Part shown: positions 13,921 through 31,094 of the stretch, in pieces | How the letters are laid out: every line of letters starts with the position of its first letter | Numbering within the stretch: the stretch's first letter is position 1 | Source: Rhizobiales bacterium Ga0077530 | Lineage (GTDB): Bacteria > Pseudomonadota > Alphaproteobacteria > Rhizobiales > Hyphomicrobiaceae | DNA: 39,669 nucleotides | Direction of reading: 5' to 3' | Assembly (NCBI GenBank): GCA_001464855.1 | Contig: LNEA01000021.1 | Coordinates: 1 to 39,669, forward strand | Program-made: the position numbers and the translations under genes | The notes under the pieces: model-generated | Database searches by the model: none | Told to the model about the DNA's origin: nothing | The model's input: the letters and a program-made list of their open reading frames with translations, nothing else

Positions 13921-14130
13921 TTGCGAGAAATTGCTCTTTTCAAGTATCCGGCGATCGCGGTGGAGGCGTTCCCTGCGGTTGTGAAAGCACTGCGATCCGC
14001 TCCCGATAGGCCTCGGCTGACGGGCGTGGTGATCTACGTTCTAATCCTGCCGCTCGTGATCTTTGGATAATTGCGTCAGCGTCTATCAGACCGTCAGCTT
14101 TCCGGCCTACGGCCGCCGAAGGAAGAGGGG
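13921..14130 (+). pseudogene. Fragment of a membrane protein, frameshifted
   Basis: Plus-strand reading of LREIALFKYPAIAVEAFPAV continues to LTGVVIYVLILPLVIFG, a membrane helix, and stops at 14070. In the next frame it seems to continue as DNCVSVYQTVSFPAYGRRR. I recall a rhizobial protein of unknown function with a coiled-coil start, a helix of the VIY-LILPLV type and then VTVYQ-FPAYG. The neighbouring gene at 14232 matches the start of that same family. This looks like a displaced and frameshifted piece of it. The family recall is unverified and the limits are approximate. Confidence 0.35.
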
Positions 14131-14231
14131 GCGCGAAGCGTGCCTGGAAGCCCCTCTATGTCGTGTCCATTGTCCTCGCGCCATCGATGCGGTGAAGCCT
14201 TAGTCAGCGACCACAGGAAGGACCGGTCGAC

Positions 14232-14570
14232 ATGGACGACGGCAAGGCGGATGGAGTTGTACTCCACCTGATGGATCGAATAGCCGCGCTCGAGCGGGAA
14301 CTCGCGGCTGAGATCGCTAAGGAAAGGGCTGAGTTGCGCGTCGGCCTTGAACAGGGTCGGGTTGCATTTGAGCAAGAGGTGCTTCGCCAGCATCGGGCGT
14401 TGAAGACCCGTTTGTCACGCTACCTTCTACGCGCGCATCCGCTTGTGGCACTGAAGCGCAGCATGCCCTACGCTTCGATTGATGATCTGCCTCTGTTTGC
14501 CAGATCAAACCTTCCGACGAACGCGCAACAGACTTATCTCGGCGGAGCGGCGCTATTACAAGGCAGGTGA
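14232..14570 (+). CDS. Small coiled-coil protein of unknown function, possibly truncated
   Basis: 112 codons from ATG 14232. Residues 10-65 form a strongly charged helical stretch (DRIAALERELAAEIAKERAE) of coiled-coil type, followed by YLLRAHPLVAL, after which the sequence loses a clear pattern (KRSMPYASIDDLP). In the rhizobial family that I recall, a membrane helix and a Cys-containing C-terminal half would follow, so this may be a truncated copy. The preceding 300 bases contain what looks like the missing helix segment. No strong ribosome binding site was seen beyond GGAAGG about 8 bases upstream. Function unknown. Confidence 0.45.
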   Translation: MDDGKADGVVLHLMDRIAALERELAAEIAKERAELRVGLEQGRVAFEQEVLRQHRALKTRLSRYLLRAHPLVALKRSMPYASIDDLPLFARSNLPTNAQQTYLGGAALLQGR

Positions 14571-14599
14571 GCGTTGGGTCGCACGCTAGTCCATGAGAC

Positions 14600-15046
14600 C
14601 TCCAGTTCAAGACATGTCAAATACCAATCGCGATCGGGATGGGACCGTTGTCGTCACTCTTCGACGTGGCGACGTTTTCCTTGCTTCATGCCGGTCTGGG
14701 CGTCGGGCGGCTCATCCAGATTGGCTTGACCGAGCGGATGACGAAAATCACGAGAATCTGCGTCACGATCGATTCAATAAACCATGCGGTCCTAAAAACG
14801 GCGACGTCGCCCCATCCGATGCTTGTTGCGACCTCTCTCGGAGCGCTTGCAGCGGCGCTCATCTTGGCGCTCACGCCTATCGGCCACGTCTTTGGCTTTG
14901 TACCTCTGCAGCCGCTTGTACTGACGGCCATCGCCGTGATCGCTGTTGGATATCTCGCGATGGCGGAAGGACTGAAGCGCGTCGCAATGCCCTCCAGAAG
15001 CGGCGCGCATCGCCGGGCAAGCGCCCCGATCATCACCGGCAGATGA
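14600..15046 (+). pseudogene. C-terminal fragment of a P-type cation ATPase with an internal inversion
   Basis: The plus strand reads MGPLSSLFDVATFSLLHAG from 14639, the helix start seen in MgtA/PMA-type ATPases. From about 14811 it reads HPMLVATSLGALAAALILAL, then TPIGHVFGFVPLQPL and VGYLAMAEGLKR, the last two helices of the same family. The segment expected between them (FRTAWFIESIVTQILVIFVI, then RSVKPIWMSRP) is present but encoded on the minus strand between about 14703 and 14808. Flipping those roughly 106 bases restores one continuous family-like sequence. The head, phosphorylation and ATP domains are absent from the window, so this is a remnant. It converges with, and overlaps by a few bases, the end of the Usp gene at 15033. 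Confidence 0.75.
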
Positions 15047-15470
15047 GAACCGGCGTAGTGCTATGAGTCAGCACGTTGACCGCTGCGCTACCCAGGAGCA
15101 AGCGGCCCAAGCCGCGTCGGCCATGTGACGCCATGACGATCAAGTCGCATCCAATCGACTTTGCACACTCCAGAATGCCCTCTGCCGGGTATTGATCCTT
15201 GACGTGCATGCCTTTGCAATCAACGCCGATCTCGTTTGCGGCGATGTCGACGGCGGCGAGCACTCTTGCGGCACTTTCGGTGACGGATTTCTCGAACTCG
15301 TCGATCGGAAATGCGATCGCTGCTTCTCCCGTGACATAGGCCGTCCACGGTTCGGTGACTGTCACGGCAGAGACTCTTGCATTCAAGTCTTTGGCAAGCT
15401 GCAGACCTGCCATAACAGCCTTGTTTGCCAGTTCCGAGCCGTCAGTTGCAATCAGAATGTGCTTGTACAT
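15033..15470 (-). CDS. Universal stress protein (UspA family)
   Basis: 145-residue single-domain Usp beginning MYKHILIATDGSELANKAV. The C-terminal loop SHGRRGLGRLLLGS, followed by LTHSTTPVLICR, fits the ATP-binding G-x9-GS pattern, with Ala in place of the first Gly. Members are induced in stress or stasis and bind ATP; the specific role is unknown. A FixK-type box lies 89 bases upstream. The start ATG at 15470 is preceded by CTAGGAT. It shares closest resemblance in the window with the decayed Usp at 20601, including the ending TTVLICR against TTPVLICR. Confidence 0.93.
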   Translation of the reverse strand: MYKHILIATDGSELANKAVMAGLQLAKDLNARVSAVTVTEPWTAYVTGEAAIAFPIDEFEKSVTESAARVLAAVDIAANEIGVDCKGMHVKDQYPAEGILECAKSIGCDLIVMASHGRRGLGRLLLGSAAVNVLTHSTTPVLICR

Positions 15471-15559
15471 GGGTTCTATCCTAGGAGGAGGATTCGATTG
15501 GACGCCAAGAAGGTAGCGCGCTTCATTGTTTGAGCAGCGCCCAATTTCGGAGCGCTTCT

Positions 15560-15573
15560 TTGATGCAGCTCAA
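15560..15573. promoter_or_regulatory. FNR/FixK-type box TTGATGCAGCTCAA
   Basis: Matches TTGA-N6-TCAA; on the minus strand it reads TTGAGCTGCATCAA. It lies 89 bases upstream of the Usp start at 15470 and is almost identical to the boxes at 16143 and 20004. Confidence 0.75.
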
Positions 15574-15659
15574 CGTGCCCACTTCAGGGCGCTGCCCATT
15601 GGGCCCATTTCGAGTGGCAAATCTTCCGCTGCGCTGGAGCTAGATTTTTCAGATAGACT

Positions 15660-16067
15660 CTATGTCTTTGACGGAGTTGGCGGTTTCGTTCCCACGGGAG
15701 CGATAAGCGGCGGCACCTCAGGATTGGTCCGCAAAGTCTCAAGATAAGCGAGGATATCCTGAATCTCATCTCGGGTGAGCTGATTATCCGGCATTGGCAA
15801 GTGGGGCAGGATAAGAACGTTGCTGATGCGCTCTGCAGACTGCCCCGGCCTATTTGCAATGCCTCGGAACGTACCGATACCCTCAGGTACTGCCGCGGTG
15901 GCCGCGCCACTGACCACGTGACAGCTGGAACAAAGGCGGACTGCCAGCTCTCGCCCGCGCGTTGCCGACGGCTCGAGCGCGTGTACGAAGGCACCATGCG
16001 AAACCGCCGAAAGGCAAGCTGCCGTCGCCACAACTCTGGCACTTCTTCTCGCGCTGTCCGTCCACAT
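15660..16067 (-). CDS. Small monoheme cytochrome c
   Basis: 135-residue exported cytochrome with heme motif CSSCH (Cys46, Cys49, His50) and probable sixth ligand Met92 in LPMPDNQLT. The final helix is DEIQDILAYLETL. A signal-like segment covers residues 8-30. The ATG at 16067 is chosen because GGAGGG stands 9 bases before it; a TTG at 16094 would place that site inside the gene. The spacing between heme and Met and the pattern LPHLPMPDNQLT-DEIQDI put it in a different sub-group from the 1209-type cytochromes, closer to cytochrome c domains of the class I type with a PMP motif. A FixK-type box lies 75 bases upstream. The C-terminus is Pro-rich. Confidence 0.88.
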   Translation of the reverse strand: MWTDSARRSARVVATAACLSAVSHGAFVHALEPSATRGRELAVRLCSSCHVVSGAATAAVPEGIGTFRGIANRPGQSAERISNVLILPHLPMPDNQLTRDEIQDILAYLETLRTNPEVPPLIAPVGTKPPTPSKT

Positions 16068-16142
16068 ATGCCGAATCCCTCCAACCGATGCCAACCCGCA
16101 GTGTTTCGATATCAGAACAGGGCTTAACGAGCCTCGCCGTCC

Positions 16143-16156
16143 TTGATGCAGCGCAA
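16143..16156. promoter_or_regulatory. FNR/FixK-type box TTGATGCAGCGCAA
   Basis: Fits TTGA-N6-(T/G)CAA; on the minus strand TTGCGCTGCATCAA. It lies 75 bases upstream of the cytochrome start at 16067. The identical 14-mer occurs at 20004-20017. It could also influence the plus-strand gene at 16375, 218 bases away, but that is less likely. Confidence 0.7.
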
Positions 16157-16374
16157 GGTCAACGGGATCTCTTGGATCCAGAAATGGTGCGGATGTGAGT
16201 TGCGCACTTCATTGAATACTCAATTCTCGCGACGCGCCGGGCCGTTCTATGTGGCGAACGTCTGTCGGATTGTTTCGATGGCTGCAGAATGAAGCGCATC
16301 GTCGTCGCCGTCTCACAAAATACCAATCGTCGCGCTCCCTCTTCCATGGGCGAGCAAGCAGGTGGAGTGATGAA

Positions 16375-16836
16375 ATGAAACGCGAGAGGACCTGGATTGT
16401 GATCGCCGATGGCCGCCAAGCCAAAGTGCTTGAGAGCCATGGGCCAAATTCTAATCTAGTTCCTGTCGATGACATGGTCTTTTCCAAGGAACTCCCTGCC
16501 GATCGCAACATTCAACGTGATCGTCCGGGCCGCAGCTTTGAATCGTCCGGTCCCACGCGTCATGCAATGGAAAATCGGACCAGTCCGCACAGGGAGCTGA
16601 AGCGTGAGCTTGCCGGTGAAGTGGTTGATAAGCTCGACAGCAGCCTGAGAGAGGGAAGGTTCGATCGCATCGCGCTCGTCGCGCCGCCGACAGTGTTAGG
16701 CGATCTGCGAGATGCACTTTCAGAGTCGCTCCGTGCGAAGCTCGTCGCCGAACTCGCAAAGGATCTCACGAAGGTGCCGCCCCAGGAGCTCCCGCGTCGC
16801 TTGGAGGCTATCTGGGGATCTAAAACACACCGCTAG
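16375..16836 (+). CDS. baeRF12-like (host attachment-type) protein
   Basis: 153-residue soluble protein beginning MKRERTWIVIADGRQAKVLE. This start, together with the later RFDRIALVAPPTVLGDLRDA, is typical of proteins annotated as required for attachment to host cells, now placed in the baeRF group related to archaeal/eukaryotic release factor eRF1 domain 2. They are often found beside stress genes, and the molecular role is not established. GGTGGAG at 16361-16367 supports the ATG at 16375; longer in-frame starts exist but add a low-complexity Arg/Ser extension. The next gene downstream is hsp20 with its own box. Confidence 0.75.
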   Translation: MKRERTWIVIADGRQAKVLESHGPNSNLVPVDDMVFSKELPADRNIQRDRPGRSFESSGPTRHAMENRTSPHRELKRELAGEVVDKLDSSLREGRFDRIALVAPPTVLGDLRDALSESLRAKLVAELAKDLTKVPPQELPRRLEAIWGSKTHR

Positions 16837-16872
16837 GGTAGGGCAGCTCGGTATTCGAGGATGGCAGCCATC

Positions 16873-16886
16873 TTGCGGTGAATCAA
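16873..16886. promoter_or_regulatory. FNR/FixK-type box TTGCGGTGAATCAA
   Basis: Fits TTG(A/C)-N6-(T/G)CAA, ending 85 bases before the Hsp20 start at 16972. It uses TTGC in the left half, as allowed for FixK-type sites. Confidence 0.6.
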
Positions 16887-16971
16887 TGTGACCCGTCCCG
16901 GCGTCGGCTAGAAAACTTCGTCTCAAAGAGGGCGACTTGCGCCCAAAAGTATTGAAGACAGGAGTAATCAG

Positions 16972-17463
16972 ATGGCAAAGACTGACGTAGCAAAGTCTCC
17001 GGAATCGACGCCGTCGCGTCCAGTCGACGTGTTCGCTGCCATGCGCGGCGAAATGGAGCGGATGTTCGAGCGGTTCGAACATGGCTTCCCACGCTGGCCC
17101 TCGCTTTTCCGCCAAGGCAATGGTGCGATCGTCGTTCCGGAGCTCGACGTCAAGGAAAGCAGTGATTCGATTATGATCGAAGCTGAGCTTCCGGGCGTCG
17201 ATGAGAAAGAGGTCTCCGTGACCTTCGCGAACGGCATGCTGACGATCAAGGGCGAGAAGAAGCAGAGCAGTGAAGAGACAAAAGATAACTACTATCTCTC
17301 GGAGCGCAGCTACGGCGCTTTCGAACGCGTGCTTCGTCTGCCGGAGACTGTCGACGACACGAAAATCGAGGCGAAGTTTGACAGGGGTGTGCTCAAGATC
17401 AAAGCCGCCAAGAAGCCAGAGGCCATCAAGGCCCAGCGAAAGATTGAGATCAAGAAGGCGTGA
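16972..17463 (+). CDS. Hsp20/alpha-crystallin small heat-shock protein
   Basis: 163-residue small chaperone. The alpha-crystallin domain covers about residues 52-150, with LPGVDEKEVSVTFANGMLTI, then KGEKK, and the late FDRGVLKIKAAKK that includes the GVL core signature. The N-terminal arm has MRGEMERMFERFE. It prevents protein aggregation without ATP. AGGAGTAATCAG precedes the ATG. A FixK-type box lies upstream and a strong hairpin follows the stop, so it is probably a single-gene transcript. Low-oxygen induction would be unusual for a classical heat-shock gene but matches HspX-like use in dormancy (inference). Confidence 0.95.
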   Translation: MAKTDVAKSPESTPSRPVDVFAAMRGEMERMFERFEHGFPRWPSLFRQGNGAIVVPELDVKESSDSIMIEAELPGVDEKEVSVTFANGMLTIKGEKKQSSEETKDNYYLSERSYGAFERVLRLPETVDDTKIEAKFDRGVLKIKAAKKPEAIKAQRKIEIKKA

Positions 17464-17479
17464 TTGTCTCGACACCAGG

Positions 17480-17506
17480 GGCGCAGTCAAACGTTCAGAC
17501 TGCGCC
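17480..17506 (+). terminator. Hairpin terminator after hsp20
   Basis: GGCGCAGTC (17480-17488) and GACTGCGCC (17498-17506) form a perfect 9-bp stem with a 9-base loop, followed by TTAT. It begins 16 bases after the hsp20 stop. Confidence 0.75.
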
Positions 17507-17597
17507 TTATGTTCGGATGCCGGGGTTGATTGGCGACTAGCATCCAATCAACTAGGGGAAGGTCGTCGCAGCGGCTTGAGAAGATGTTCGAGTCCAG

Positions 17598-18599
17598 CTA
17601 CATGGAGCCGGGGCCGTCTGACGCATCAAGTGCGAATTCCGCGACGACTGCGGCGTGATATGAGCCGAGCAATTGATCTCCTTTGGAATAGCCCACGACC
17701 TCATCGCCAAGCGCCTCATTGTGGGCTTCGATCGTGCGGAACTGCCCATACAAAGCGCGGCTCGCAAGGATATGATCCAACATCTGCGGGCGGCCATGGT
17801 GCAGGACACTCCAGCGTCGATCGCTTGAGATCGCGCGATCGAGGACAACGAGCGTCTTCGCACTGAGCGAGCCGTTACCCGTATCTTCCTCAGCGCCGAC
17901 CACAATCTTGATCGGCGTCTCGTAGTCCTCGGCGTTGAAATCGCCGGCTACTGCGACGAGCCGGTGGGGATCCGGCTCGAGCAGTTCATCCATGACCATT
18001 CGCAGCTCAAGGGCTTGGGCTCCACGTCGCACGGCAGACAGAAAAAAGCCTTCGGCCCATCCAGAAATACTCTTCCAGACGAAGGGCGCAACTTTCTGTC
18101 CTTGGATGGCTGCAGCGAGAGGGGCACGGAAGTGAAGATTGACGATGGTCAAGCGTCGGCCGCTGCCGAGGTCGACTTCGACAATCAGGATGGGGCGGTC
18201 GAAACGAAGCGGCTCGGGTTCTGAGGCAGTAGGGTCGGCGGTCTTCACGAGATATTGCAGAGGCGGCATCAATTGGTGGCGCAGCTCCCGGGTACTCAGA
18301 AAGGGCAGGCGCGATAGCGTGACAACATTGTGGACATCGGCGACACCCTGCCCATCGACACCTGTCGTCGAGGCTCGATGATAGTCGGCATATCTCGTTC
18401 CAACGAGCAAGAGGTCGAGAGCAGCCAGTGTACGCTCGTGTCGCCCTTTGATGCGCTGGCCATTGATTTCCTGCAGGCAGATGACGTCTGCGTCGAGGCG
18501 GGCAAGCGCTGGCCTCAGTATCTCGGCGCGCGCCTCCAGCGGCATCCGGGCTTTTGGGCCGAGATCGAGACTCTCCAGATTGAACGTTGCAATTCGCAT
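17598..18599 (-). CDS. Endonuclease/exonuclease/phosphatase family protein
   Basis: 333-residue protein of the DNase I-like fold. Seen motifs are MRIATFNLESL at the start, DADVICLQEING (metal-binding Glu), TIVNLHFRAP, VAVAGDFNAEDYETP (catalytic GDFN) and the late LDHILASRAL, matching the family DHI motif; a Ser-Tyr-His near the end (GSYHAAVVAEF) supplies the final catalytic His. The family hydrolyses phosphodiesters in nucleic acids, lipids or sugars; the substrate cannot be told. No signal peptide is visible. It lies downstream of the two exported unknown proteins on the same strand, 98 bases after the second, and may share their transcript. Confidence 0.85.
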   Translation of the reverse strand: MRIATFNLESLDLGPKARMPLEARAEILRPALARLDADVICLQEINGQRIKGRHERTLAALDLLLVGTRYADYHRASTTGVDGQGVADVHNVVTLSRLPFLSTRELRHQLMPPLQYLVKTADPTASEPEPLRFDRPILIVEVDLGSGRRLTIVNLHFRAPLAAAIQGQKVAPFVWKSISGWAEGFFLSAVRRGAQALELRMVMDELLEPDPHRLVAVAGDFNAEDYETPIKIVVGAEEDTGNGSLSAKTLVVLDRAISSDRRWSVLHHGRPQMLDHILASRALYGQFRTIEAHNEALGDEVVGYSKGDQLLGSYHAAVVAEFALDASDGPGSM

Positions 18600-18697
18600 C
18601 ACGATCCTAGATGGGCGATTGCGCCAGCTGTGTCCGGCGCGACTATCTCGAGCACATTATCGACAGGCTGGCAGCGCATGCGCCATCCTCCATGGCA

Positions 18698-19309
18698 CTA
18701 GGACGGCTGATTGAAGGCCTCGAGAATCGTTCGTACGAGCCTCAGCCTCCCGACCACGGAAAGCTTGGTGATGGAGATGCATTGATCTTCTATGCACACC
18801 CGCGCGTTTTCGAGATCCATTTCGACTGAGAGGAGGCTCACGCCGGGATCCCATTCGCAGTTGCCGGGCTCAGCAGTGACCCACTCCCGTACGCGATTGA
18901 CCACGAACCCCATCTCCGTTGAAGTCACGATCGCGTCGAAGCATTGTCGGAAATGCCCCATTCTGAATGCTTTGCTATCGAAGACCGGAGGCTGTGTCCG
19001 GCACTTGGCTAATGTGTCCTGTCCCTTCGAGCATGTGAATCCCAGATAGCGGTCGGTCACGCGCGTTCTCACAGGACTGGTGCAGTGTCTGTCAATCGCC
19101 CACTGTTCCATCCGCAATCGCTGATCTGCACTCACAACAGGCGTGCACGCGATAGGAATTCCGCTTTCCGCGACTGCCGAACTCGTACTCAAAAAGAGCG
19201 TCGCGCCTGCGATGAGCGCAAACGACGCGACAGAATTCACCTGTACGTCGAGGAACTCCTTCATGCGTTCGATGCGGCCATGGAACCATTGGAGTTGAAT
19301 GCAACTCAC
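18698..19309 (-). CDS. Exported Cys-containing protein of unknown function
   Basis: 203 codons from GTG 19309, which is preceded by AAGAGGAG at the right distance. ATG 19264 (MKEFLDVQV) lacks such a site but would give a more usual signal peptide. The hydrophobic segment SVASFALIAGATLFLSTSSA ends in AVAES, a likely signal peptidase site. The mature part has several spaced Cys residues that could form disulfides, and an EFLDVQ/EMDLENARVCIEDQCISI stretch of alternating hydrophobic residues. I do not recognise a domain. It follows the gene at 19371 by 61 bases on the same strand and probably shares the FixK-type promoter at 19922. Confidence 0.7.
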   Translation of the reverse strand: MSCIQLQWFHGRIERMKEFLDVQVNSVASFALIAGATLFLSTSSAVAESGIPIACTPVVSADQRLRMEQWAIDRHCTSPVRTRVTDRYLGFTCSKGQDTLAKCRTQPPVFDSKAFRMGHFRQCFDAIVTSTEMGFVVNRVREWVTAEPGNCEWDPGVSLLSVEMDLENARVCIEDQCISITKLSVVGRLRLVRTILEAFNQPS

Positions 19310-19370
19310 TCTGACTCTCCTCTTGGCGACCCGCCGATTGCTCGTGTCTGACCAGATCTCATCGGTACGG

Positions 19371-19865
19371 CTAGCCCTTAACCAGCGTGATCGTGACGCT
19401 CTTCATGGAAATGCCCTCGGTCGAGATCACAACGGTCTGCCTTGAGCCGCCAAAGGTGACGGACATCGACCCGGAGAAGCCCCCTCCCGTGATCGACACG
19501 TTCAAACGCGTGGCCGAGACACGGCCTTCTGCGCTCCCGGACGCGTTGAATGTCCGTTCCTCCCAGTCACCTGTGACTTTTTCTCCGCGCTGCGTGAGGT
19601 GTCCGCGAACCTCGATCTGGTTGCTGTCGCTTCTGCATCGTATGGCCAGCGCAAGTCTCTCTCCTCCTTCGGAGTAGTACGCGTTACATCTCACGCGTTC
19701 GGTCTGGCCATCCTGGTATCTGATCTGACCCGATCCGGTCCATGTGCCGACGAGTGCGTCAAAGGCGGTAGCGCCTGCCGCTGCTGTGGCAAAGGAGGCG
19801 ACGATCGCCGCAGCCGCTAGAACTCGCCAATATGCGGCGCCGACCGGCTCTCTTGCTCGTTCCAT
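19371..19865 (-). CDS. Exported beta-rich protein of unknown function
   Basis: 164 residues from ATG 19865, chosen because CAGGAG precedes it by 8 bases; ATG/alternative starts to 19895 are less supported. A signal-like segment ends around AAAGATA. The rest is rich in alternating polar/hydrophobic strands with many Gly: FDALVGTWTGSGQIRYQDGQ, CNAYYSEGGERLALAIRC, GDWEERTFNASGSAEGRV. This gives the look of a lipocalin-like or small beta-barrel fold. Similar hypothetical proteins are common in rhizobia by recollection. A perfect FixK-type box lies 56 bases upstream. Confidence 0.7.
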   Translation of the reverse strand: MERAREPVGAAYWRVLAAAAIVASFATAAAGATAFDALVGTWTGSGQIRYQDGQTERVRCNAYYSEGGERLALAIRCRSDSNQIEVRGHLTQRGEKVTGDWEERTFNASGSAEGRVSATRLNVSITGGGFSGSMSVTFGGSRQTVVISTEGISMKSVTITLVKG

Positions 19866-19921
19866 AGAAAACTCCTGCTCACTGACTGCTGACATTCTCC
19901 AACGTCGGAGAAGGACGACGA

Positions 19922-19935
19922 TTGACCGCGGTCAA
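19922..19935. promoter_or_regulatory. FNR/FixK-type box TTGACCGCGGTCAA
   Basis: A complete 14-bp palindrome, the most symmetric site in the window. It lies 56 bases upstream of the minus-strand gene start at 19865. Confidence 0.8.
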
Positions 19936-20003
19936 CTCGATGCCTCTCCTGAAGAGAAATTCGCGCGAGTGCACCCACTCCTGGGCGACGAATGTTCGTC
20001 AGC

Positions 20004-20017
20004 TTGATGCAGCGCAA
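20004..20017. promoter_or_regulatory. FNR/FixK-type box TTGATGCAGCGCAA
   Basis: Fits TTGA-N6-(T/G)CAA and is identical to the site at 16143. It ends 59 bases before the DUF2267 start at 20077. With the box at 19922 it forms a divergent pair, one site for each direction. Confidence 0.7.
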
Positions 20018-20076
20018 TTCCGCCGCACCTGGAATGTGATCCCTTGGCGGCGCGTGCCGAATAGAGGGGTGTCACC

Positions 20077-20532
20077 ATGAGCGTTCCACCAACTGTCAGC
20101 CATGCCGTCCAGCAGATGCAGGTTTGGCTGAAATCGTTATGCGACACCGGAGGATATTCGGATGAAGCCGAGGCGCTGTCCGTACTGAGAGTGGTTCTTC
20201 ATCAACTTCGGGATCGACTGACGCCTGATGAGGCCATCGACCTTGGCGCTCAGCTGCCGCTGATCGCGCGCGGCATTTATTACGAAGGCTGGCGACGATC
20301 GAGGACGCCTGCAAAGGCGCGTTCGCAAGACGCGTTCTTGCAGGGCGTGGCGGCACAATTAGCGCCGCACCCGATCAAGGCGGAAAATGCAGCGAGAGAC
20401 GTCTTCTCGCTGCTGGCGCAGGCGATCGACTCGGGTGAGATCGCGGATGTCATTGGCCAGTTACCCGCTGGCATCAAGGAGCTGTGGCCAGAAGGCATGC
20501 GCACATGGGCGGCAAAACGGGGTAGAGCATAA
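20077..20532 (+). CDS. DUF2267 family protein
   Basis: 151-residue soluble helical protein. The patterns EALSVLRVVLHQLRDRLTPD, then LGAQLPLIARGIYYEGW, and IADVIGQLPAGIKELWP are the hallmark of DUF2267, a domain found in stress-linked gene neighbourhoods and without a fixed biochemical role. GAGGGG stands a few bases before the ATG. It has its own FixK-type box and converges with the decayed Usp gene at 20601. Confidence 0.9.
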   Translation: MSVPPTVSHAVQQMQVWLKSLCDTGGYSDEAEALSVLRVVLHQLRDRLTPDEAIDLGAQLPLIARGIYYEGWRRSRTPAKARSQDAFLQGVAAQLAPHPIKAENAARDVFSLLAQAIDSGEIADVIGQLPAGIKELWPEGMRTWAAKRGRA

Positions 20533-20600
20533 GGCGCGGTGCGAACGCGTGAGAAGTGATTTGGCCTGCAAGTGATCGCATCATTTCGTTGAAGCAATGT

Positions 20601-20960
20601 TCACCGGCATATCAGGACCGTTGTCCTGCTGAGGGTCAGGGCGCCGAGGGCGACGCAGCCTAGCAAGAGTCGGCCCAATGCTCGCCGGCCGTAAGACGCC
20701 AAAATGATCAGATCGCACGACCGTGCCTTCGCCGCCCCCAAGTATGCCTTCTACGGATCTTGGCCTTCGACAGGATCTGGGCCGCGTTAGCGGCCACGGC
20801 TGTCTCGTATTCTTCGAACGGGAACGAGAAAGCCGAATCTCCCATAATCTGGATCGCCAGATGAAGCTGAGCAGGGCCTTCACCCTCATTTAGCCAGGGC
20901 CGATTGAACGCGAAGCGACAAAGACGACACTCCAAGCTGCCTTGGCGCCGCCGGAAGCTC
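20601..20960 (-). pseudogene. Decayed universal stress protein gene
   Basis: Minus-strand remnants of one UspA protein lie in different frames. One reads AIQIMGDSAFSFPFEEYETA then AANAAQIL (compare AIAFPIDEFEKSVTESAARV in the Usp at 15033). Another reads CDLIILASYGRRALGRLLLG, then a tail ending TTVLICR and TGA at 20601-20603. The join near 20750 changes frame, and the N-terminal part around 20900-20960 is degraded. No complete product is possible. The remnant sits between DUF2267 and the four-CBS gene. Confidence 0.75.
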
Positions 20961-21006
20961 CACCGGCTATGCTCGCCGATGCGCGACGCTCCTGCGGCTG
21001 CGCCAA

Positions 21007-21849
21007 CTACCAAAGACACTCCTTGAGGTGTTCTTCCTCGTCCAGTCGATCCAGCTCGATTCCCGTGAAATCTCCTCGAGTGACGACGCCGAGTATTTTG
21101 TGGTCCTCGACCACCGGGAGATGGCGAAATCCGCCATCGTTCATGACACGCAATGCTTCGATGGCGTGGCAGGTCGGTGAGATCGTCATCAGATCCTTCG
21201 TCATTGCGCTCGAAAGACGCAGTTTTTCCGCATCCTTGTCGAGGGCGATCACTCGGATTGCATCACGCCCAGTGAATATCCCCGTGAGATGCCCCTTTCC
21301 GTCGATCACAAGCACACCGCCGCACTTGCGCCTGCGCATGGAGCGGCACGCCTGCTGTACAGATTTGACGCCGGGGAGGGTGAACGGCTTGGTGCAATCG
21401 AGCACATCCATCAGGCGTCGATCCAGGGTGCCACCAGCGCTATCCACCGCATGCCTTCTGGCAAATTCCTCCAGCTCCATGCCTTTGAAATCTCGCAGCG
21501 ACACGACACCGCAAATCTTGCCGTTGTCGATCACCGGCAGGTGTCGAAAGCCACCTTCGGTCATGGCGCGGAGTGCATTGATGGCACTGTCGCTTGGGCT
21601 GATGGATGTGGGGTTGCGAGTCATTGCTTGGGCAAGACGGGTGCTGCTGGCATCCTTGACTCTCGCCAACAGCCGGACTGCATCGCGACCCGTGAAGATG
21701 CCACTGAGACGCTTCATGTTATCGACGACTAGAACCGATCCGGTGCCACGCTCGCGCATGAGCCTGCACGCATTACCAACGGTCTCATCCGCAGCAAGAA
21801 CGAGCGGCTTTTGATCCTTGACGATGTATGCCAGCGGTCGGTTTGTCAT
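21007..21849 (-). CDS. Four-CBS-domain protein
   Basis: 280 residues made almost wholly of two CBS pairs. Repeats are visible as SGIFTGRDAVRLLARVKDAS, ICGVVSLRDFKGMELEE, TGIFTGRDAIRVIALDKDAE and ILGVVTRGDFTGIELDR, each preceded by a GFRHLPVI-type or VLVVD-type strand. The second pair repeats the first closely, so it arose by internal duplication. CBS pairs bind adenine nucleotides and often act as energy sensors. The ATG at 21849 (MTNRPLAYIV) is preferred; a TTG at 21873 is in frame. The FixK-like site at 21889 lies 39 bases upstream. No effector domain is attached. Confidence 0.92.
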   Translation of the reverse strand: MTNRPLAYIVKDQKPLVLAADETVGNACRLMRERGTGSVLVVDNMKRLSGIFTGRDAVRLLARVKDASSTRLAQAMTRNPTSISPSDSAINALRAMTEGGFRHLPVIDNGKICGVVSLRDFKGMELEEFARRHAVDSAGGTLDRRLMDVLDCTKPFTLPGVKSVQQACRSMRRRKCGGVLVIDGKGHLTGIFTGRDAIRVIALDKDAEKLRLSSAMTKDLMTISPTCHAIEALRVMNDGGFRHLPVVEDHKILGVVTRGDFTGIELDRLDEEEHLKECLW

Positions 21850-21888
21850 GATGAAGTGTATTCTCCTCGCCAATCGCCACGGCCATCA

Positions 21889-21902
21889 ATGACACAGATC
21901 AA
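21889..21902. promoter_or_regulatory. FNR/FixK-like site, minus strand TTGATCTGTGTCAT
   Basis: One mismatch (last base) to TTGA-N6-TCAA. It lies 39 bases before the four-CBS gene start at 21849, with the partner box for the opposite direction 64 bases away. Confidence 0.5.
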
Positions 21903-21966
21903 AAAAGCGAACATGCTGCATCGCAGCGAGGCGCGCTTCTGTGATTGCCAGTGCCGCTGGCCTCCG

Positions 21967-21980
21967 TTGACCAACATCAA
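21967..21980. promoter_or_regulatory. FNR/FixK-type box TTGACCAACATCAA
   Basis: Exact TTGA-N6-TCAA, ending 54 bases before the CBS-BON gene start at 22035. It overlaps a second dyad, CAACATCAATGTTG (21972-21985). Confidence 0.7.
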
Positions 21981-22034
21981 TGTTGACGACGCGCTCCCTG
22001 GTATTCTTCGACTTTCAACCTGACGGGGTGTGCC

Positions 22035-22733
22035 ATGCAAGCCAAGGACATAATGACCCGAGACGTTACTACAGTGTCGCCGTCGGCAACTGTCCGCGAA
22101 GTCGCCAAACTCATGGCGAGCAAGCGGTTGAGCGGACTACCTGTCGTATCTTCGGATGGACGGCCTGTGGGTATGCTCACAGCCAGCGATCTGCTACACC
22201 GCGTCGAAACCGGAACCGAGAAACGATCCTCCTGGTTCACGAGCTTCTTCTCAAATCCCGACGACATGGCGCGCCAGTATGCCAAGGCGCATGGGCTGAA
22301 GGCGCATGAAGTCATGTCACGTCACGTAGTATCCGTGCGCGACGATGCCGATCTCAGCGAGGTCGCGGACGTCCTCGACAGGAACAAGTTGAAGCGCGTT
22401 CCGGTCGTGCGGGATGGAGCGCTGGTAGGCGTCATCTCGCGCAGCGATATTGTCCGGGTTCTCAGCGAATCGAGCGTGGGTCAACCCGTCGCAAAGTCGA
22501 ACGACGTCGGCTTGCAGAACGCAATATGGCAGGAGATTCGTAAGCAGAAATGGCTCGACAGTGGGTATGTCAACATCATGGTCAATGACGGAGTCGTCGA
22601 GGCCTGGGGCATGGTGGCGTCGGCGGAGCAACGCAATGCGCTTGTGGTGCTACTCGAAGAAGCCGCAGGCGCGGCCAAGATCGAGGATCATCTCAGGGTT
22701 GGTATGCCAAGCACGACCGCGGGATTGGTCTGA
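22035..22733 (+). CDS. CBS-pair protein with C-terminal BON domain
   Basis: 232 residues. The first CBS motif is MQAKDIMTRDVTTVSPSATV to VGMLTASDLL. A second, HEVMSRHVVSVRDDADLSEV to VGVISRSDIVRVL, follows a charged linker (residues 58-85). From about residue 160 a BON domain follows (YVNIMVNDGVVEAWGMVASA, then EQRNALVVLLEEAAG). This CBS-CBS-BON order is a known alphaproteobacterial arrangement in oxygen-limitation and stress clusters. CBS pairs bind adenine nucleotides; BON domains bind lipids or membranes in other proteins. The cytochrome gene follows after 11 bases and is probably co-transcribed. A FixK-type box lies upstream. Confidence 0.92.
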   Translation: MQAKDIMTRDVTTVSPSATVREVAKLMASKRLSGLPVVSSDGRPVGMLTASDLLHRVETGTEKRSSWFTSFFSNPDDMARQYAKAHGLKAHEVMSRHVVSVRDDADLSEVADVLDRNKLKRVPVVRDGALVGVISRSDIVRVLSESSVGQPVAKSNDVGLQNAIWQEIRKQKWLDSGYVNIMVNDGVVEAWGMVASAEQRNALVVLLEEAAGAAKIEDHLRVGMPSTTAGLV

Positions 22734-22744
22734 CGAACCGCATC

Positions 22745-23143
22745 ATGGGCGCACAACGTGACGCGACGCCCGCTCCTGGTCAGCGTCACGCACGCACTGA
22801 GTGTTGCCGCACGCCTCGTGGTATCGTTCGAAGTGTCGCGCGTACGGTGATGCTCTCTCTTCTTTTTGCCGCCGTAGAGCCTGCTCGTGGAGAAGATGGG
22901 AGGGCCTTGCTGGAAAGACACTGCGGCAGGTGCCACGCAGTTTCCGAAAGCGCTAAAAGCCGCCAGACTAGCGCACCGAATCTATGGGTCATCTTGCGGT
23001 CCTATGAGCAGGAGCAGCTCGAGTTCGAACTCTCCGAAGGTATCGGCTCGCGACACAGTAAGATGCCGCAGATCCAGTTCTCATCCGAGGAGATATCAAA
23101 CATCCAGGAATTTCTGTTCGGCCCGGCCCAGCGGGCGCGGTAG
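22745..23143 (+). CDS. Small monoheme cytochrome c
   Basis: 132 codons from ATG 22745, 11 bases after the CBS-BON gene. Heme motif CGRCH (Cys60, Cys63, His64); probable sixth ligand Met107 in SRHSKMPQIQF; last helix EEISNIQEFLF. The true start may be further in, because the first 30 residues are Arg/Cys-rich and the signal peptide seems to begin near SVARTVMLSLLFAAVEPARG. No clear ribosome binding site supports any one start. It has no box of its own and probably depends on the promoter at 21967. It is distinct from the 1209-type cytochromes in the heme-to-Met segment. Confidence 0.82.
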   Translation: MGAQRDATPAPGQRHARTECCRTPRGIVRSVARTVMLSLLFAAVEPARGEDGRALLERHCGRCHAVSESAKSRQTSAPNLWVILRSYEQEQLEFELSEGIGSRHSKMPQIQFSSEEISNIQEFLFGPAQRAR

Positions 23144-23243
23144 CGGGCAGCCTTGACCGGATCAGCGGAAGCTAAGCGAACAGCCGCCGCGCAGAGTCCT
23201 CTCGATCTTGATCGGGGACAGGCAGACGAGAAGGTCAGGAGCG

Positions 23244-24602
23244 ATGAGAGTCACATTCCTCGGCGCGACGGGAACGGTAACCGGGTCCAGATACCTGATC
23301 GAGCACGACAGAACATGTATTCTTATCGATTGCGGCCTGTTCCAGGGGAATCCCGAACTCCGACAGCGCAACTGGCAAGCTGCACCATTCAACCCGGCCG
23401 CGCTCGATGCTATCCTTCTTACTCACGCGCATATCGATCACAGCGGCGCCATCCCGCGGCTCGTTCGTGATGGGTTCAAGGGACCCATCTACTGCTCCGA
23501 GGCAACGGCCGATCTCTGTGCCATCCTGCTTCCCGATAGCGGTCGCATCCAAGAAGACGATGCCGAGACTGCCAACCGCTACGGCTATTCCCGGCACGCC
23601 CCGGCATTACCACTGTATACCGAAGCCGACGCACACATTGCGCTGGAGCAGTTCAGACCAGTGGGCCTTGGTACGCCGCATGACCTATCCCCTGAACTGA
23701 GCTTCACCCTGTCGCGGGCCGGTCATATCCTCGGCGCCTCTTTCATCGACCTGCGTAGCGGTGACGGTACTTCCATCCTGTTCACAGGCGATATCGGACG
23801 CCCCAACAGCCCTGTCATGAAAGCGCCCGCTCAGTTGCAGGGTGCCGACTATATCGTCCTTGAATCGACGTACGGCGATCGGCGGCATGGCGAAAAAGAT
23901 CCATCCGATCAAATCGGCGATGTGATCCGCCGGACCGCTGCGCGGGGCGGCACCGTTGTCGTGCCGGCTTTTGCGGTGGGCAGAACGCAGGATCTGCTCT
24001 TCCACCTCTACACACTCAAGCAAGCAGGGCGCATTCCCGATCTTCCCGTGTTTCTCGATAGCCCCATGGCCATCAACGCGACAGAACTGCTGCTCCGTCA
24101 CAAGAACGAACACCGTCTATCCCCCCAGAAATGCGCCGCGGTATGCGCCATCGCCCGCTACGCACGCACCGTCGACGAATCCAAGGCCATCAACGCCAGT
24201 CCCATCCCCAAGGTCATCATTTCCGCGAGCGGAATGGCAACTGGTGGCCGAGTGCTCCACCATCTCAAGGCGTATGTCGGTGACCCTCGCAATGCTGTAT
24301 TGCTCGCTGGATACCAGGCGCCAGGAACACGAGGGGATCGCCTCGCACGCGGCGAGTCGAGCCTCAGGATCCATGGCCGTGACTGGCCTGTGCGCGCCGA
24401 AATCGCCCAACTCGACACGATGTCTGCACATGCCGATTACGCAGAAATTCTCGATTGGCTGAAGAACTTCCGCTCACCACCACGCAAGGTCTTCATAACC
24501 CACGGCGAGCCCAAGGCCGCCGAAGCCATGCGGCAGCACATTACTGAGATGTTCGGCTGGGAGGCCACTGTTCCCATCTTCGCGCACCATGAGGTGCTGT
24601 AG
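23244..24602 (+). CDS. MBL-fold/beta-CASP RNase-like hydrolase with RNA specificity domain
   Basis: 452 residues beginning MRVTFLGATGTVTGSRYLIE. The metal-binding motif is THAHIDHSG (His61, His63, Asp65, His66), with further ligands in SRAGHILGAS and FTGDIGRP. A beta-CASP insert and the C-terminal RNA-specificity motif follow: SASGMATGGRVLHHL, then LAGYQAPGTRGDRLA, and MSAHADYAEILDWL with the final FITHGEP. This is the CPSF73/YSH1-like bacterial and archaeal group with predicted RNase activity. AGGAGCG precedes the ATG at 23244. It lies 100 bases after the cytochrome gene and may belong to the same transcript. Related proteins occur in low-oxygen regulons, which fits the context (inference). 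Confidence 0.92.
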   Translation: MRVTFLGATGTVTGSRYLIEHDRTCILIDCGLFQGNPELRQRNWQAAPFNPAALDAILLTHAHIDHSGAIPRLVRDGFKGPIYCSEATADLCAILLPDSGRIQEDDAETANRYGYSRHAPALPLYTEADAHIALEQFRPVGLGTPHDLSPELSFTLSRAGHILGASFIDLRSGDGTSILFTGDIGRPNSPVMKAPAQLQGADYIVLESTYGDRRHGEKDPSDQIGDVIRRTAARGGTVVVPAFAVGRTQDLLFHLYTLKQAGRIPDLPVFLDSPMAINATELLLRHKNEHRLSPQKCAAVCAIARYARTVDESKAINASPIPKVIISASGMATGGRVLHHLKAYVGDPRNAVLLAGYQAPGTRGDRLARGESSLRIHGRDWPVRAEIAQLDTMSAHADYAEILDWLKNFRSPPRKVFITHGEPKAAEAMRQHITEMFGWEATVPIFAHHEVL

Positions 24603-24604
24603 TC

Positions 24605-24625
24605 ACGTCGTTCCCGTCACGACGT
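24605..24625 (+). terminator. Hairpin after the MBL hydrolase gene
   Basis: ACGTCGT (24605-24611) and ACGACGT (24619-24625) form a 7-bp stem with a 7-base loop, starting 2 bases after the stop codon. There is no clear T-run, so its role as terminator is uncertain. Confidence 0.4.
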
Positions 24626-24731
24626 CGTGCGCGGACACGACACAGTTCGCAATGCGAGCCAGAACTCGACTGTCAGTTGCGGGGCCTTCCAACAAAAGGA
24701 CCGACGCGCGACCCGTCGCTCACCATTGCTC

Positions 24732-24745
24732 TTGATGTCGGTCAA
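24732..24745. promoter_or_regulatory. FNR/FixK-type box TTGATGTCGGTCAA
   Basis: Exact TTGA-N6-TCAA, ending 102 bases before the start of the hibernation factor-cold shock gene at 24848. Confidence 0.75.
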
Positions 24746-24847
24746 TGTTGCGAGCGCTGCGGCGCGTAGAAAAACGAAATGCCGCGAAAGATGGCACGAT
24801 CCTGAGGTCTGCGGCCTCGCGCAGTTGGATCAAGGAGCACGTGTTCC

Positions 24848-25414
24848 ATGCAAGTTCCCCTCCAAATAGCCTTCGAGCATCTTGATCATTCGGATGCCCT
24901 GGAGGCAGCCGTGCGCAAGGAGACAAAGCGGCTCGAGCGCTTTCATAATCGCATCACGTCGATGCGCGTGGTGCTCGCGCGGGCGCAGCATCGGCGGCAC
25001 GAAGGCGATACCTACAGTGTTCGCATCCATATCGCTGTGCCGGGCGGCAAACACATAGACATCAGTCGAGATCCATCGGCAACCGGTCGGCATGAGGATA
25101 TGCATGTCACGATCAGAGACGCATTTGATGCTGCCGGGCGGCAGCTACAGGATCAGGACCGCAAGATCTCAGGCGACGTCAAGGCACACGAAGTTCCGCC
25201 GCACGGGATCGTCGCGTCTCTAGTCCCAGAGCGCGACTACGGCTTTATCGCGGCATCCGACGGGCGCGAGATCTATTTCCACCGCAACAGCGTCATCGGT
25301 GCCAAGCTAGAGGACCTACAGCCTGGGCAGGAGGTGCGCTTCTCGGAAGCAAAAGGCGACAAAGGCCCCCAGGCGACATTCGTCCGCCCCATCGGCAAGC
25401 ATCACATAAGTTGA
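24848..25414 (+). CDS. HPF/RaiA ribosome-hibernation domain fused to a cold-shock domain
   Basis: 188 residues. Positions 1-105 resemble HPF/RaiA (LQIAFEHLDHSDALEAAVRK, then ETKRLERF, and a late VTIRDAFDAAGRQLQD), which bind the small ribosomal subunit and silence translation. Positions 115-183 form a cold-shock domain, with RDYGFIAASDGREIYFHRNS containing the nucleic acid-binding RNP1-like and RNP2-like segments. It lacks the long-HPF dimerisation tail. AAGGAG stands 10 bases before the ATG. A FixK-type box lies upstream, so translation would be turned down when oxygen falls. The domain assignment is firm; the joint function is inference. Confidence 0.93.
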   Translation: MQVPLQIAFEHLDHSDALEAAVRKETKRLERFHNRITSMRVVLARAQHRRHEGDTYSVRIHIAVPGGKHIDISRDPSATGRHEDMHVTIRDAFDAAGRQLQDQDRKISGDVKAHEVPPHGIVASLVPERDYGFIAASDGREIYFHRNSVIGAKLEDLQPGQEVRFSEAKGDKGPQATFVRPIGKHHIS

Positions 25415-25503
25415 GCCGCAACGATTGGATTGGCATTAGTGCGATCCAGGCGTCGATCTGCTTCGCCCGCTACTCGATGTCGGACCATTTTCCGACATCC
25501 ATC

Positions 25504-25878
25504 CTACTGCTTGCGGCGAAGACCCGTGATGTAAGCAATGAGATCGTCACGATCCTGGCCGGTGACCACGAGATTTGGCATTTCGGCGTGGGGGGTCTGA
25601 AGAAACACTCCAAGTGCCCTCTCGTTGAGGCCGGGAAGCCCCGAAAGGACACTGAATGGCGTTGCCTCGAGGCGCGGTGAGGCCTTTTCCGCTGGCGCTA
25701 CCGCGTGGCATTGCGCGCATATCGCCTCAGCGTAGGCACGCCCACGCCGAGCATCGCCAAGCTCCGCGCTTGCTGCCGGCGACGAGAGGAGCGCCAATGC
25801 CATCGCGGTAGCGGCCGCCGCCTTCACAATATCGGTCGGTCTGACCTGACGATCCGGAGATTTGTTGTGCGTGTGCAT
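25504..25878 (-). CDS. Small monoheme cytochrome c
   Basis: 124 residues from ATG 25878. A signal-like segment (DIVKAAAATAMALALLSSPA) ends near ASA. Heme motif CAQCH (Cys54, Cys57, His58), probable sixth ligand Met100 in TPHAEMPNL, and last helix DRDDLIAYITGLRRKQ. The upstream TPR-cytochrome gene ends at 25883, 4 bases before this start; an in-frame ATG at 25893 would overlap it. The two are clearly one operon under the box at 26934. Two adjacent, different cytochromes may act as a relay pair (inference). Confidence 0.9.
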   Translation of the reverse strand: MHTHNKSPDRQVRPTDIVKAAAATAMALALLSSPAASAELGDARRGRAYAEAICAQCHAVAPAEKASPRLEATPFSVLSGLPGLNERALGVFLQTPHAEMPNLVVTGQDRDDLIAYITGLRRKQ

Positions 25879-25882
25879 CTCG

Positions 25883-26881
25883 CTACTTCCCATTCAGGCT
25901 ATTGATGTAGGCGACGATCCTGTCGATCTGCGCATCGGGCAAAGCGAACTGCGGCATCTCGTCGTGGCGCGCGGCGATGGCGCGCGTCAGAGGTTCGCGC
26001 AATGCCTGAATTGGATGGCGCAGGTGTAGAGCACGAAATCGAGGTGCCTTCGGGTTGGGACTCGCTCCGTCACGCCCAACAGCATGGCAACCGCTGCAAT
26101 GCGCTTCGACGAGGCCTTGGCCTTCCTTGACTCGACTGGCTGTCTCCTCGATGAGTCCGCTCTCTGCGCGGAGGCGCTTGAGGCCATCTCTGGCTCCGAC
26201 TAGGCTTGGATCGAGGAGCAAGGCGCGACGGAAGTCTTCGATGGCGAGCTGGCGCCTGCCGCGCTGCTCATGGACGTAACCGCGATTGTTGTAGGCCAAC
26301 GCGTAGATCGGGTTGAGCGTGATGGCGGCCGTGAAGTCTTCGATCGCACGATCCGGCTCGCCGCTATTGCTGTAGGCAAGTCCCCTGTTGTTGTAGGTGT
26401 TGGCGCCAGCTGGGTTGAGGGCTATCGCTTCCGAAAAGTCAGAAATCGCTTTCTTCTCGTCGCCCTCTACGAGATGTGCGTGACCCCGGCCATTATAACC
26501 AATGGCGGATTTCGGGTTCAGACGGATCGCCTCACTGTAGTCGGCGATCGCACCCACTAGGTCGTTGAGGCGCACATGAACTAGTCCGCGGCTGATGTAA
26601 AGCGGTCCTTCCGCCGGATTGAGCCGGATGGCTTCGCCGAGATCGGCCAGTGCAAGATCCAGGGCACCGGCATCGGACCTTGCGCGGCCGCGATTACGGA
26701 AGGCCATCGCCTTATCAATCGGTGAATAAGCAGAGTTGGCGATGATTTCGGAACAGGCGGAGAGTTGAATCTCAGCACTGGTGGCGGATCGGCAGTCATC
26801 GATCACATCGGCACGCGCTGCCCCGCCGCCCAAGGCCACCAACCAAACGAAAATGAGTGTCGCGACCGTAGACCGATGCAT
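25883..26881 (-). CDS. TPR-repeat protein fused to a cytochrome c domain
   Basis: 332 residues. Start ATG 26881 is fixed by GAGGAGG just upstream; the frame stays open to 27163, but that extension lacks a ribosome binding site. A signal peptide covers residues 1-24. About five tetratricopeptide repeats run from residue 57 to 235, each showing the Y/F-x-x-RG and A-I-x-D-x-x-x-A-I-x-L-N/D-P pattern. A cytochrome c domain follows: CSGCH (Cys262, Cys265, His266) and Met309 in ARHDEMPQF, with the last helix AQIDRIVAYINSL. The heme domain resembles that of the gene at 1209. The TPR part probably binds a partner protein in the periplasm (inference). First gene of a two-gene operon. Confidence 0.93.
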   Translation of the reverse strand: MHRSTVATLIFVWLVALGGGAARADVIDDCRSATSAEIQLSACSEIIANSAYSPIDKAMAFRNRGRARSDAGALDLALADLGEAIRLNPAEGPLYISRGLVHVRLNDLVGAIADYSEAIRLNPKSAIGYNGRGHAHLVEGDEKKAISDFSEAIALNPAGANTYNNRGLAYSNSGEPDRAIEDFTAAITLNPIYALAYNNRGYVHEQRGRRQLAIEDFRRALLLDPSLVGARDGLKRLRAESGLIEETASRVKEGQGLVEAHCSGCHAVGRDGASPNPKAPRFRALHLRHPIQALREPLTRAIAARHDEMPQFALPDAQIDRIVAYINSLNGK

Positions 26882-26933
26882 TGAAGCTCCTCCTCGAGAA
26901 TTTCTACTGTCGAGCACCGGTCGATCATCGAAA

Positions 26934-26947
26934 TTGACGCTAATCAA
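26934..26947. promoter_or_regulatory. FNR/FixK-type box TTGACGCTAATCAA
   Basis: Exact TTGA-N6-TCAA, 52 bases upstream of the TPR-cytochrome start at 26881. Confidence 0.75.
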
Positions 26948-27119
26948 ATTGGGCATTCCAGAGCGGCAATGTCCCCTAGGAGACGCAAAAACTTGCGTGC
27001 GGCCCCCTCTATGGCATTTCTTCGGGGGCCAAGCGCGGGCGCCTTTGTTCCATGTCAAAGCGTGGTTTGGACTAGGCGCGAGATACTTCCAACATGAGAA
27101 TTGTGGGGCAAGCACATCT

Positions 27120-27200
27120 ATGAGAAGTTCTGGCGTCGTCGGCGTGGTGGGTATCCTCCTCATCGTCGTCCTAGTGCTGGTCTTGACGGGCCGACTTTAA
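27120..27200 (+). CDS. Possible tiny single-helix membrane protein
   Basis: 26 codons encoding one hydrophobic helix (GVVGVVGILLIVVLVLVL) and a TGRL end. It resembles the C-terminal half of the small DUF3309-type proteins common in rhizobia, but is shorter. No clear ribosome binding site is seen, so it may be a remnant. It lies between the divergent TPR-cytochrome and ABC genes. Confidence 0.3.
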   Translation: MRSSGVVGVVGILLIVVLVLVLTGRL

Positions 27201-27334
27201 ACTCAACAGCCAGAACGCCAAACGGGTCAGCCGTTAGGCGCTAGCGAGTTAGGCGGATACCGCTTCGGCGGCGATGCCAGTTCGGCCGTTTTTGTGCGCG
27301 ATGCCCTTCCCCGCGCCAATTGCCGGAGTTCCAT

Positions 27335-29077: not shown

Positions 29078-29113
29078 TCAGGTGCTGAGGGTCTACCGCC
29101 TTCCGGACGCTGT

Positions 29114-29159
29114 TTTTACATGACCCCGCCATGAGGCGGAGTGAAGCTAGGGTGTAAAA
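29114..29159. repeat. Nested inverted repeats after the ABC gene
   Basis: TTTTACA (29114-29120) pairs with TGTAAAA (29153-29159). Inside, CCGCC (29126-29130) pairs with GGCGG (29135-29139) around a 4-base loop. The stretch lies 36 bases after the ABC stop and 73 bases before the DksA-type gene. It could be a terminator, an operator or a leader structure; no T-run follows the inner hairpin. Confidence 0.4.
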
Positions 29160-29231
29160 CGATGATTTAAGCCGTTCTATTGCCGCCTAAGCGCTTGCTA
29201 TGCACATAGGTACAATTGATGGAGTAGCGCA

Positions 29232-29558
29232 ATGCCCGATACTGCCGCCGCCAAAGTCCGTCTCGAGACGCAACTCGCCGAGCTGGAAAATCGTCGGGAT
29301 CGAATTTCAAAGGATTTGGATGAACCGCTTAGTCGCGATTCTTCCGAACGAGCTATCGAGATGGAGGACGACCTTTCGCTAGAGGGGCAAGCTGTTCTCA
29401 TCACGCGCGAAATCGCCTCTGTGAAGCGAGCGTTGACACGAATTGAGAAGGACACCTACGGGGAGTGTGTTCGGTGCGGCGCCGAAATCGCGCCCAAGCG
29501 TCTTGAGGCTCGCCCAGAGGCAGCATTGTGCTTTCCATGCGCGAGCAAAGAACAGTAA
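29232..29558 (+). CDS. DksA/TraR-type zinc finger protein
   Basis: 108 residues. An N-terminal coiled coil (LETQLAELENRRDRISKDLD) is followed by EDDLSLEGQAVLITREIASV and a C-terminal zinc finger, CVRCGAEIAPKRLEARPEA then CFPC (four Cys). This matches short DksA/TraR proteins that enter the RNA polymerase secondary channel. The coiled-coil tip lacks a DxxDxA motif that I can identify; it has DDLS instead, so its effect on polymerase may differ. GGAG precedes the ATG. No FixK-type box was found upstream. Confidence 0.9.
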   Translation: MPDTAAAKVRLETQLAELENRRDRISKDLDEPLSRDSSERAIEMEDDLSLEGQAVLITREIASVKRALTRIEKDTYGECVRCGAEIAPKRLEARPEAALCFPCASKEQ

Positions 29559-29604
29559 CGATTTTATATCGATCACCTGAAGGGGCAGCACGAGACACAA
29601 TCGT

Positions 29605-29623
29605 GACGGCACATGGTGCCGTC
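29605..29623. terminator. Hairpin after the DksA-type gene
   Basis: GACGGCAC (29605-29612) and GTGCCGTC (29616-29623) form a perfect 8-bp stem with a 3-base loop, 46 bases after the stop at 29558 and before the convergent cytochrome gene. No T-run follows. Confidence 0.5.
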
Positions 29624-29709
29624 GACTGTACAAGAGAGTTCCAGCGCACCGTAAGTTAGCGGCTCGGCTGAGTTCGCCCAACGTTTAAGGCCGCGTTATT
29701 GGGCGGGCA

Positions 29710-30087: not shown

Positions 30088-30152
30088 CAAGTTGCAGGCT
30101 CCTATCAGGCACTCGACAGCAGGTGGGAGGATTGCCGCGAGGGCTCAATGGT

Positions 30153-30632: not shown

Positions 30633-30639
30633 GACGGTA

Positions 30640-31094
30640 GCCCCCGATCGCCATTCGGTAATAGTGATACCATGCGCAAATGATCGCATGATATCCGCGC
30701 GGATGCCTCTGGGCCCATTGGCGAGCGCCCGCACTTGAACGCTAGATCTGCTACGAAAACCTGCTACAGTATGCAGCAGTAGCAGACGAGCAATACATCG
30801 TTAAATCAATGACTTATGCGCCACATCCATCCCGTCCCCTACGGGGCTCCATAATTCTCTCGCGCGGCGTGCGCGTCTCCTAACTTTTAGAAGACCGGAT
30901 ACGGCGCTTATCGCGACGTCGCGCCCGCGACCGCGCTCTCCAGTTGGCTAAATGGCTTCAACGATCTATAGGCGGACAGCCGAAGGATGATGGTGGTTGT
31001 GTCCCCGGCGTGTCCCAACTCAAACCGCAGACTCGATAGGTCAACGAACCGGCGGGTAAATTAGTGCGCGAAATCAATTAGGTTAGCTGAACTT
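30640..31094. other. Intergenic region before tRNA-Leu
   Basis: No recognisable gene. It contains direct and inverted copies of one heptamer, CTGCTAC at 30748-30754 and 30761-30767 with GTAGCAG at 30779-30785. It separates the stress and cytochrome block from the housekeeping genes and holds the tRNA promoter. The tRNA 3' end is not duplicated elsewhere in the window as far as I could see. Confidence 0.45.

Follow-up and report, generated by a model that had tools for sequence, protein, structure and literature searches.

The window analysed here, a 39,669-nucleotide stretch of contig LNEA01000021.1 from Rhizobiales bacterium Ga0077530, contains a patch of broken genes of about 1.1 kb with an MlaD-like gene on one side and an intact universal stress protein gene (15033..15470, minus strand) on the other, the latter marking the border of the scrambled patch. 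Within this patch, positions 14639-15046 correspond to the last ~135 codons of a P-type ATPase of the MgtA type (Mg2+, type IIIB). Six-frame translation places the left part, MGPLSSLFDVATFSLLHAGLG, and the right part, with PHPMLVATSLGALAAALILALTPIGHVFGFVPL, in a single plus-strand frame, and the family segment that is absent between both flanks, DVAVFRTAWFIESIVTQILVIFVIRSVKPIWMSRP, is encoded on the minus strand. Homology to intact relatives delimits a left piece (14639..14704, plus strand) and a right piece (14809..15046, plus strand) that carries PHPMLVATSLGALAAAL and, further on, AEGLKRVAM and a stop; reverse-complement homology delimits the inverted segment of ~104 bp between them (14705..14808, minus strand).

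The left edge of the homology to intact relatives falls exactly at 14639, and the upstream part of the ATPase gene is absent; ~690 N-terminal codons are gone from the relic, and the E1-E2 ATPase and HAD catalytic domains are likewise absent from it. When the lost parts were sought elsewhere in the genome, no other piece of the gene was recovered and distant paralogues only were found, the other P-type ATPases of the genome having at most 43% protein identity. Because the rest of the ATPase is absent, we treat 14639-15046 as a pseudogene, and because the catalytic domains were not found there, it is classed as a relic rather than as a working MgtA-type member. A working small protein made from the present ORF was also considered and was rejected, given that the inverted stretch in its plus-strand reading has antisense-only matches. 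As read from the sequence, 14639-15046 is a dead C-terminal ATPase fragment, internally inverted, that cannot give rise to a pump. It aligns with the C-terminus of the MgtA/MgtB-type magnesium P-type ATPases (TIGR01524, type IIIB), but unlike members of that family it comprises the last ~135 codons only and is internally inverted.

The closest intact ATPase is L062, a near-complete protein (TIGR01524, 724.5 bits, cut-off 610.75) encoded in the same-genus genome G003 (contig 669, 2361-4838, minus strand). Among all 31 relatives, the left, middle and right pieces each gave their best score with L062; since this best relative is common to all pieces and the middle one is reversed, the relic is one gene with one flipped segment and not as a mosaic of two genes. 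When the three pieces were searched by tblastn against 30 relatives that a protein search had identified, the matchable pieces lay in normal left-middle-right order and on one strand in every relative, and the inverted order was not found in any of the 31 homologues compared, L062 included. One candidate, L028, had appeared to encode the inverted segment in the sense direction (58% across residues 18-55); it was rejected as an ordinary ATPase that had been matched on its antisense strand. The antisense reading of the L028 ATPase gene is a trap for protein-level searches. A plasmid collection gave no relevant match to the arrangement, and the exact 24-base left junction was found in none of the viral contigs.

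Substitution rates bear on the age of these changes. Compared with L062 in their original sense, the window pieces have a dN of 0.14 against a dS of 0.98 overall, and the inverted piece has a dN of 0.11 and a dS of 0.92. The low dN relative to dS therefore suggests that coding constraint acted for the greater part of the period after the split, and we infer from these values that inversion and truncation both happened comparatively recently, with the own branch of G003 adding to the constraint.

Evidence for the inversion and its ends

An initial annotation had described a P-type ATPase remnant carrying a small internal inversion, and this description is borne out by profile scores, which rise when the segment is un-flipped. 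The score for Cation_ATPase_C (Pfam; cut-off 27.3) increases from 24.9 bits as is to 50.4 bits after un-flipping, and that for PRK15122 (NCBIfam) from 23.2 to 55.1 bits. Aligned to L062, the middle piece scores 116 as the reverse complement and 20 in the forward direction, and the highest score among 500 shuffles was 33. We regard the presence of the inversion in the sequence as confirmed.

The exact ends of the segment can be placed within narrow limits. In a DNA alignment to L062, left homology covers 14639-14702, reverse-complement homology covers 14705-14813 and right homology starts at ~14806; the inversion ends are uncertain by ~5 bases (14702-14708 on the left, 14805-14810 on the right). 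Identity to the nearest relatives is only ~75%, which blurs the junctions by this ~5 bp and hides intermediate steps. Un-flipping 14705-14808 (104 nt; equivalent to 14706-14807) yields one open frame of 408 bases, as does un-flipping 14703-14807 (105 nt; equivalent to 14698-14812). The initial annotation had proposed an inversion of ~106 bases whose reversal restores a continuous ATPase; the inversion and the single open frame stand, but a flip of exactly 14703-14808 introduces a frameshift that puts the middle out of frame and gives two stops, where a length of ~104 fits. Correspondingly, the flipped translation aligns continuously with ATPases for 14705-14808 (the 50.4 bits given above) but not for 14703-14808. 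The two in-frame flips differ in the residue spacings that they produce. In most relatives, 26 residues precede the F of FRTAWF and the stretch from that F to the P of HP counts 33; the same spacings in the window are 26 and 34 with the 14705-14808 flip and 25 and 35 with the 14703-14807 flip, and the former is therefore the simpler. The ATPase relic is 3 bp above the usual homologue length.

Short repeats occur near both ends. A 5-bp inverted match is formed by GGGCG (14698..14702, plus strand) as its left arm and CGCCC (14808..14812, plus strand) as its right arm; the initial annotation had placed the left arm correctly but the right arm at 14809-14813. This match abuts the inversion in one in-frame model, and its length of 5 bp is within chance: when random window site pairs 106 bases apart were scored for an inverted match within 8 bases, 15% of the pairs equalled or exceeded it (P ~0.15). 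No inverted repeats of 10-40 nt were found at the inversion ends, and the longer repeats that were found do not bound the segment. An imperfect 13-bp inverted repeat (14663-14675/14804-14816) was examined as an exchange site and rejected, as its left arm is ~30 bp away from the junction, on the outer side. A perfect 12-bp palindrome, GGCGACGTCGCC (14800..14811), runs across the right junction. Neither a serine nor a tyrosine recombinase was detected among the window ORFs scanned with Pfam, a set covering part of the small ORFs. The suggestion that GGGCG/CGCCC were recombination sites, or marked an old invertible element, is not upheld by a 5-bp match with a chance of 15%, a scan that returned no recombinase and homologues of which 31 of 31 are in normal order.

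Broken genes beside the ATPase relic

Shards of a conserved ~207-aa protein lie at the left of the patch. The C-terminal shard (aa 182-207 plus stop; 13940..14017, minus strand) was recovered by tblastn and gave a DNA alignment score of 41, where shuffles reached at most 31. The middle shard (aa 74-113, with a frameshift; 14017..14137, plus strand) and the N-terminal shard (upstream bases plus aa 1-73; 14205..14454, plus strand) are both flipped in place relative to the sister genome G002. The ~207-aa protein is present in several related genomes (L085, L086, L087, L088 and L091), and its residues 114-181, conserved cysteine motifs included, were not found in the available genome sequence. Directly after the flipped N-terminal shard, and adjoined by the ATPase relic, is a further relic that we take to be ChaB-like (14463..14592, plus strand). 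This relic consists of 27 N-terminal codons, an apparent internal deletion of ~30 codons and a weakly supported C-terminal part with a stop, which scores 30 where shuffles reach up to 32.

The order in G002 (L064) provides a reference for the arrangement of these genes. In that genome the same universal stress protein gene, the ChaB-like gene and the gene for the ~207-aa protein follow one another, with the last two divergently transcribed; when G002 is turned to match the window, the ~207-aa protein is encoded on the minus strand by one continuous gene, its C-terminus leftmost. The window order is C-terminal shard (minus), middle shard (plus) and N-terminal shard (plus), with the C-terminal shard oriented as in G002, and two in-place flips restore the G002 order of the gene. 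The end of the N-terminal shard and the start of the middle shard map to one and the same point of the parent gene, and 4 bp (CTGA) are common to both. Taken with the ATPase segment, at least three apparent in-place flips, together with deletions, occur in 13.94-15.05 kb, and the junction overlaps are 0-5 bp. Judged against the homologous genes, the flanking ~1 kb thus holds further apparent micro-inversions and deletions, which the initial annotation had missed.

Possible origin of the rearrangements

The reading that we favour, to which we would give a probability of roughly 55%, is that the inversion is the irreversible scar of a local break-and-rejoin event (by end-joining or template switch) in a decaying locus, and not a switch. 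Pieces of a non-essential broken stretch would have been rejoined the wrong way round by error-prone repair, and the ATPase relic would record one inversion event of ~104 bp, recent relative to the split from the nearest relative and arising without a recombination site. Ku/LigD end joining would be the best fit, with microhomology template switching as the alternative. The inversion junctions need no long repeat; overlaps of 0-5 bp, in-place flips, deletions and gains of 3-4 bases are all expected from wrong-way rejoining of broken pieces. The 4-bp shared breakpoint and the 3-bp excess in the ATPase would be compatible with staggered break ends that were filled in before joining.

Components of this pathway are encoded in the genome. 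Ku was detected at 165.6 bits, above the cut-off, and adjacent to it on the same contig is a fragment of the LigD polymerase domain, cut by the contig end, that covers profile positions 1-106 of 245 and scores below the whole-family cut-off. Ku/LigD end joining is enriched in Proteobacteria (PMC7719229). The locus resembles bacterial Ku/LigD non-homologous end joining in that the machinery is in the genome and that short overlaps and wrong-way rejoining fit its products; it differs in that the attribution here is one that we infer from sequence. A single repair episode or mechanism would lie behind all of the events, on the assumption that the draft assembly is correct here, and the rearrangements may all have been simultaneous. 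The bolder version of this idea, a chromothripsis-like 1-kb episode in which a dispensable locus was broken at several points and fragments of ~100-350 bp were flipped in place by Ku/LigD with three flips and at least three deletions at once, strikes us as doubtful. Some observations count against break-and-rejoin more generally: the draft genome is fragmented and is the only assembly available for the species, and the ~207-aa C-terminal shard and the end of the ChaB-like relic have modest scores. In addition, the 5-bp inverted match at the ends is also usable by template switching.

One may postulate instead that the DNA of the cell is not inverted and that assembly mis-oriented either contigs of ~100-350 bp or chimeric reads produced by whole-genome amplification, a scenario that we consider somewhat unlikely. 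It would accord with the state of the draft genome (747 contigs, 88% complete), with flipped pieces that are all short and kept in order like mis-oriented small contigs, and with an un-flipped ATPase fragment that is in frame and without decay. There are no N runs in the window, however, joins with overlaps of at most 5 bp are hard for a de Bruijn assembler, and decay is apparent whatever the orientation: the ATPase lacks ~690 codons, its neighbour lacks aa 114-181 and carries a frameshift, and the middle of the ChaB-like gene is gone.

Replication template switching (quasipalindrome or microhomology-mediated break-induced replication), in which the opposite strand is copied, would produce one inversion at GGGCG/CGCCC, and we judge this unlikely as the explanation of the locus. 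The repeat edges do abut the inversion in one in-frame model, and inverted repeats usually lie on either side of human-chimpanzee microinversions, half of these repeats measuring 4-8 nt (PMC8755829). The match is nevertheless within chance, the model that uses it requires two unusual length changes in the parent gene where the 14705-14808 flip requires one, and the other flips are not explained by template switching on its own. The human-chimpanzee events are moreover 17-33 nt long and abut inverted repeats (PMC8755829), sizes that the segment of ~104 bp exceeds; they resemble it in being a clean local flip of a short segment with breakpoints close together, but the window has a match of at most 5 bp at chance level and other rearrangements around it.

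A reversible, recombinase-driven invertible element (inverton), or the relic of one, is very improbable. Bacterial invertons, intragenic ones included, share with this locus a short inverted segment in a coding sequence, but known invertons have repeats of 10-40 nt (PMC11892184); the window is without such repeats at the segment ends, without a nearby recombinase among the ORFs scanned and without a second orientation in the 31 homologues, and the host gene is dead. Least credible of all is that the original middle was replaced by a reverse-oriented fragment inserted from a different ATPase copy, as the other P-type ATPases in the genome, which might have served as donors, are too divergent (≤43%), and the middle piece corresponds to the segment that this very gene lacks, with its best relative common to both flanks.

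If the assembly is right, the locus would preserve in compact form a natural instance of small-scale bacterial inversion that was independent of homology, the point of interest being the clustering of apparent micro-inversions. Such inversions are usually missed by gene-level comparison, in which a flipped 100-bp piece is taken for a broken gene, and an antisense-homology scan of pseudogenes can uncover them.

To the right of the patch, 15033-30734 has the appearance of a stress or low-oxygen type gene island that contains universal stress proteins, CBS/BON proteins, c-type cytochromes, a host-attachment protein and DUF2267. An ORF at 20581-20905 (minus strand) returned no Pfam hit and is probably a second, broken universal stress protein copy, with two stretches that match the G002 gene. 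In another protein of the island (24848-25414), S30AE (ribosome hibernation) and cold-shock domains are fused.
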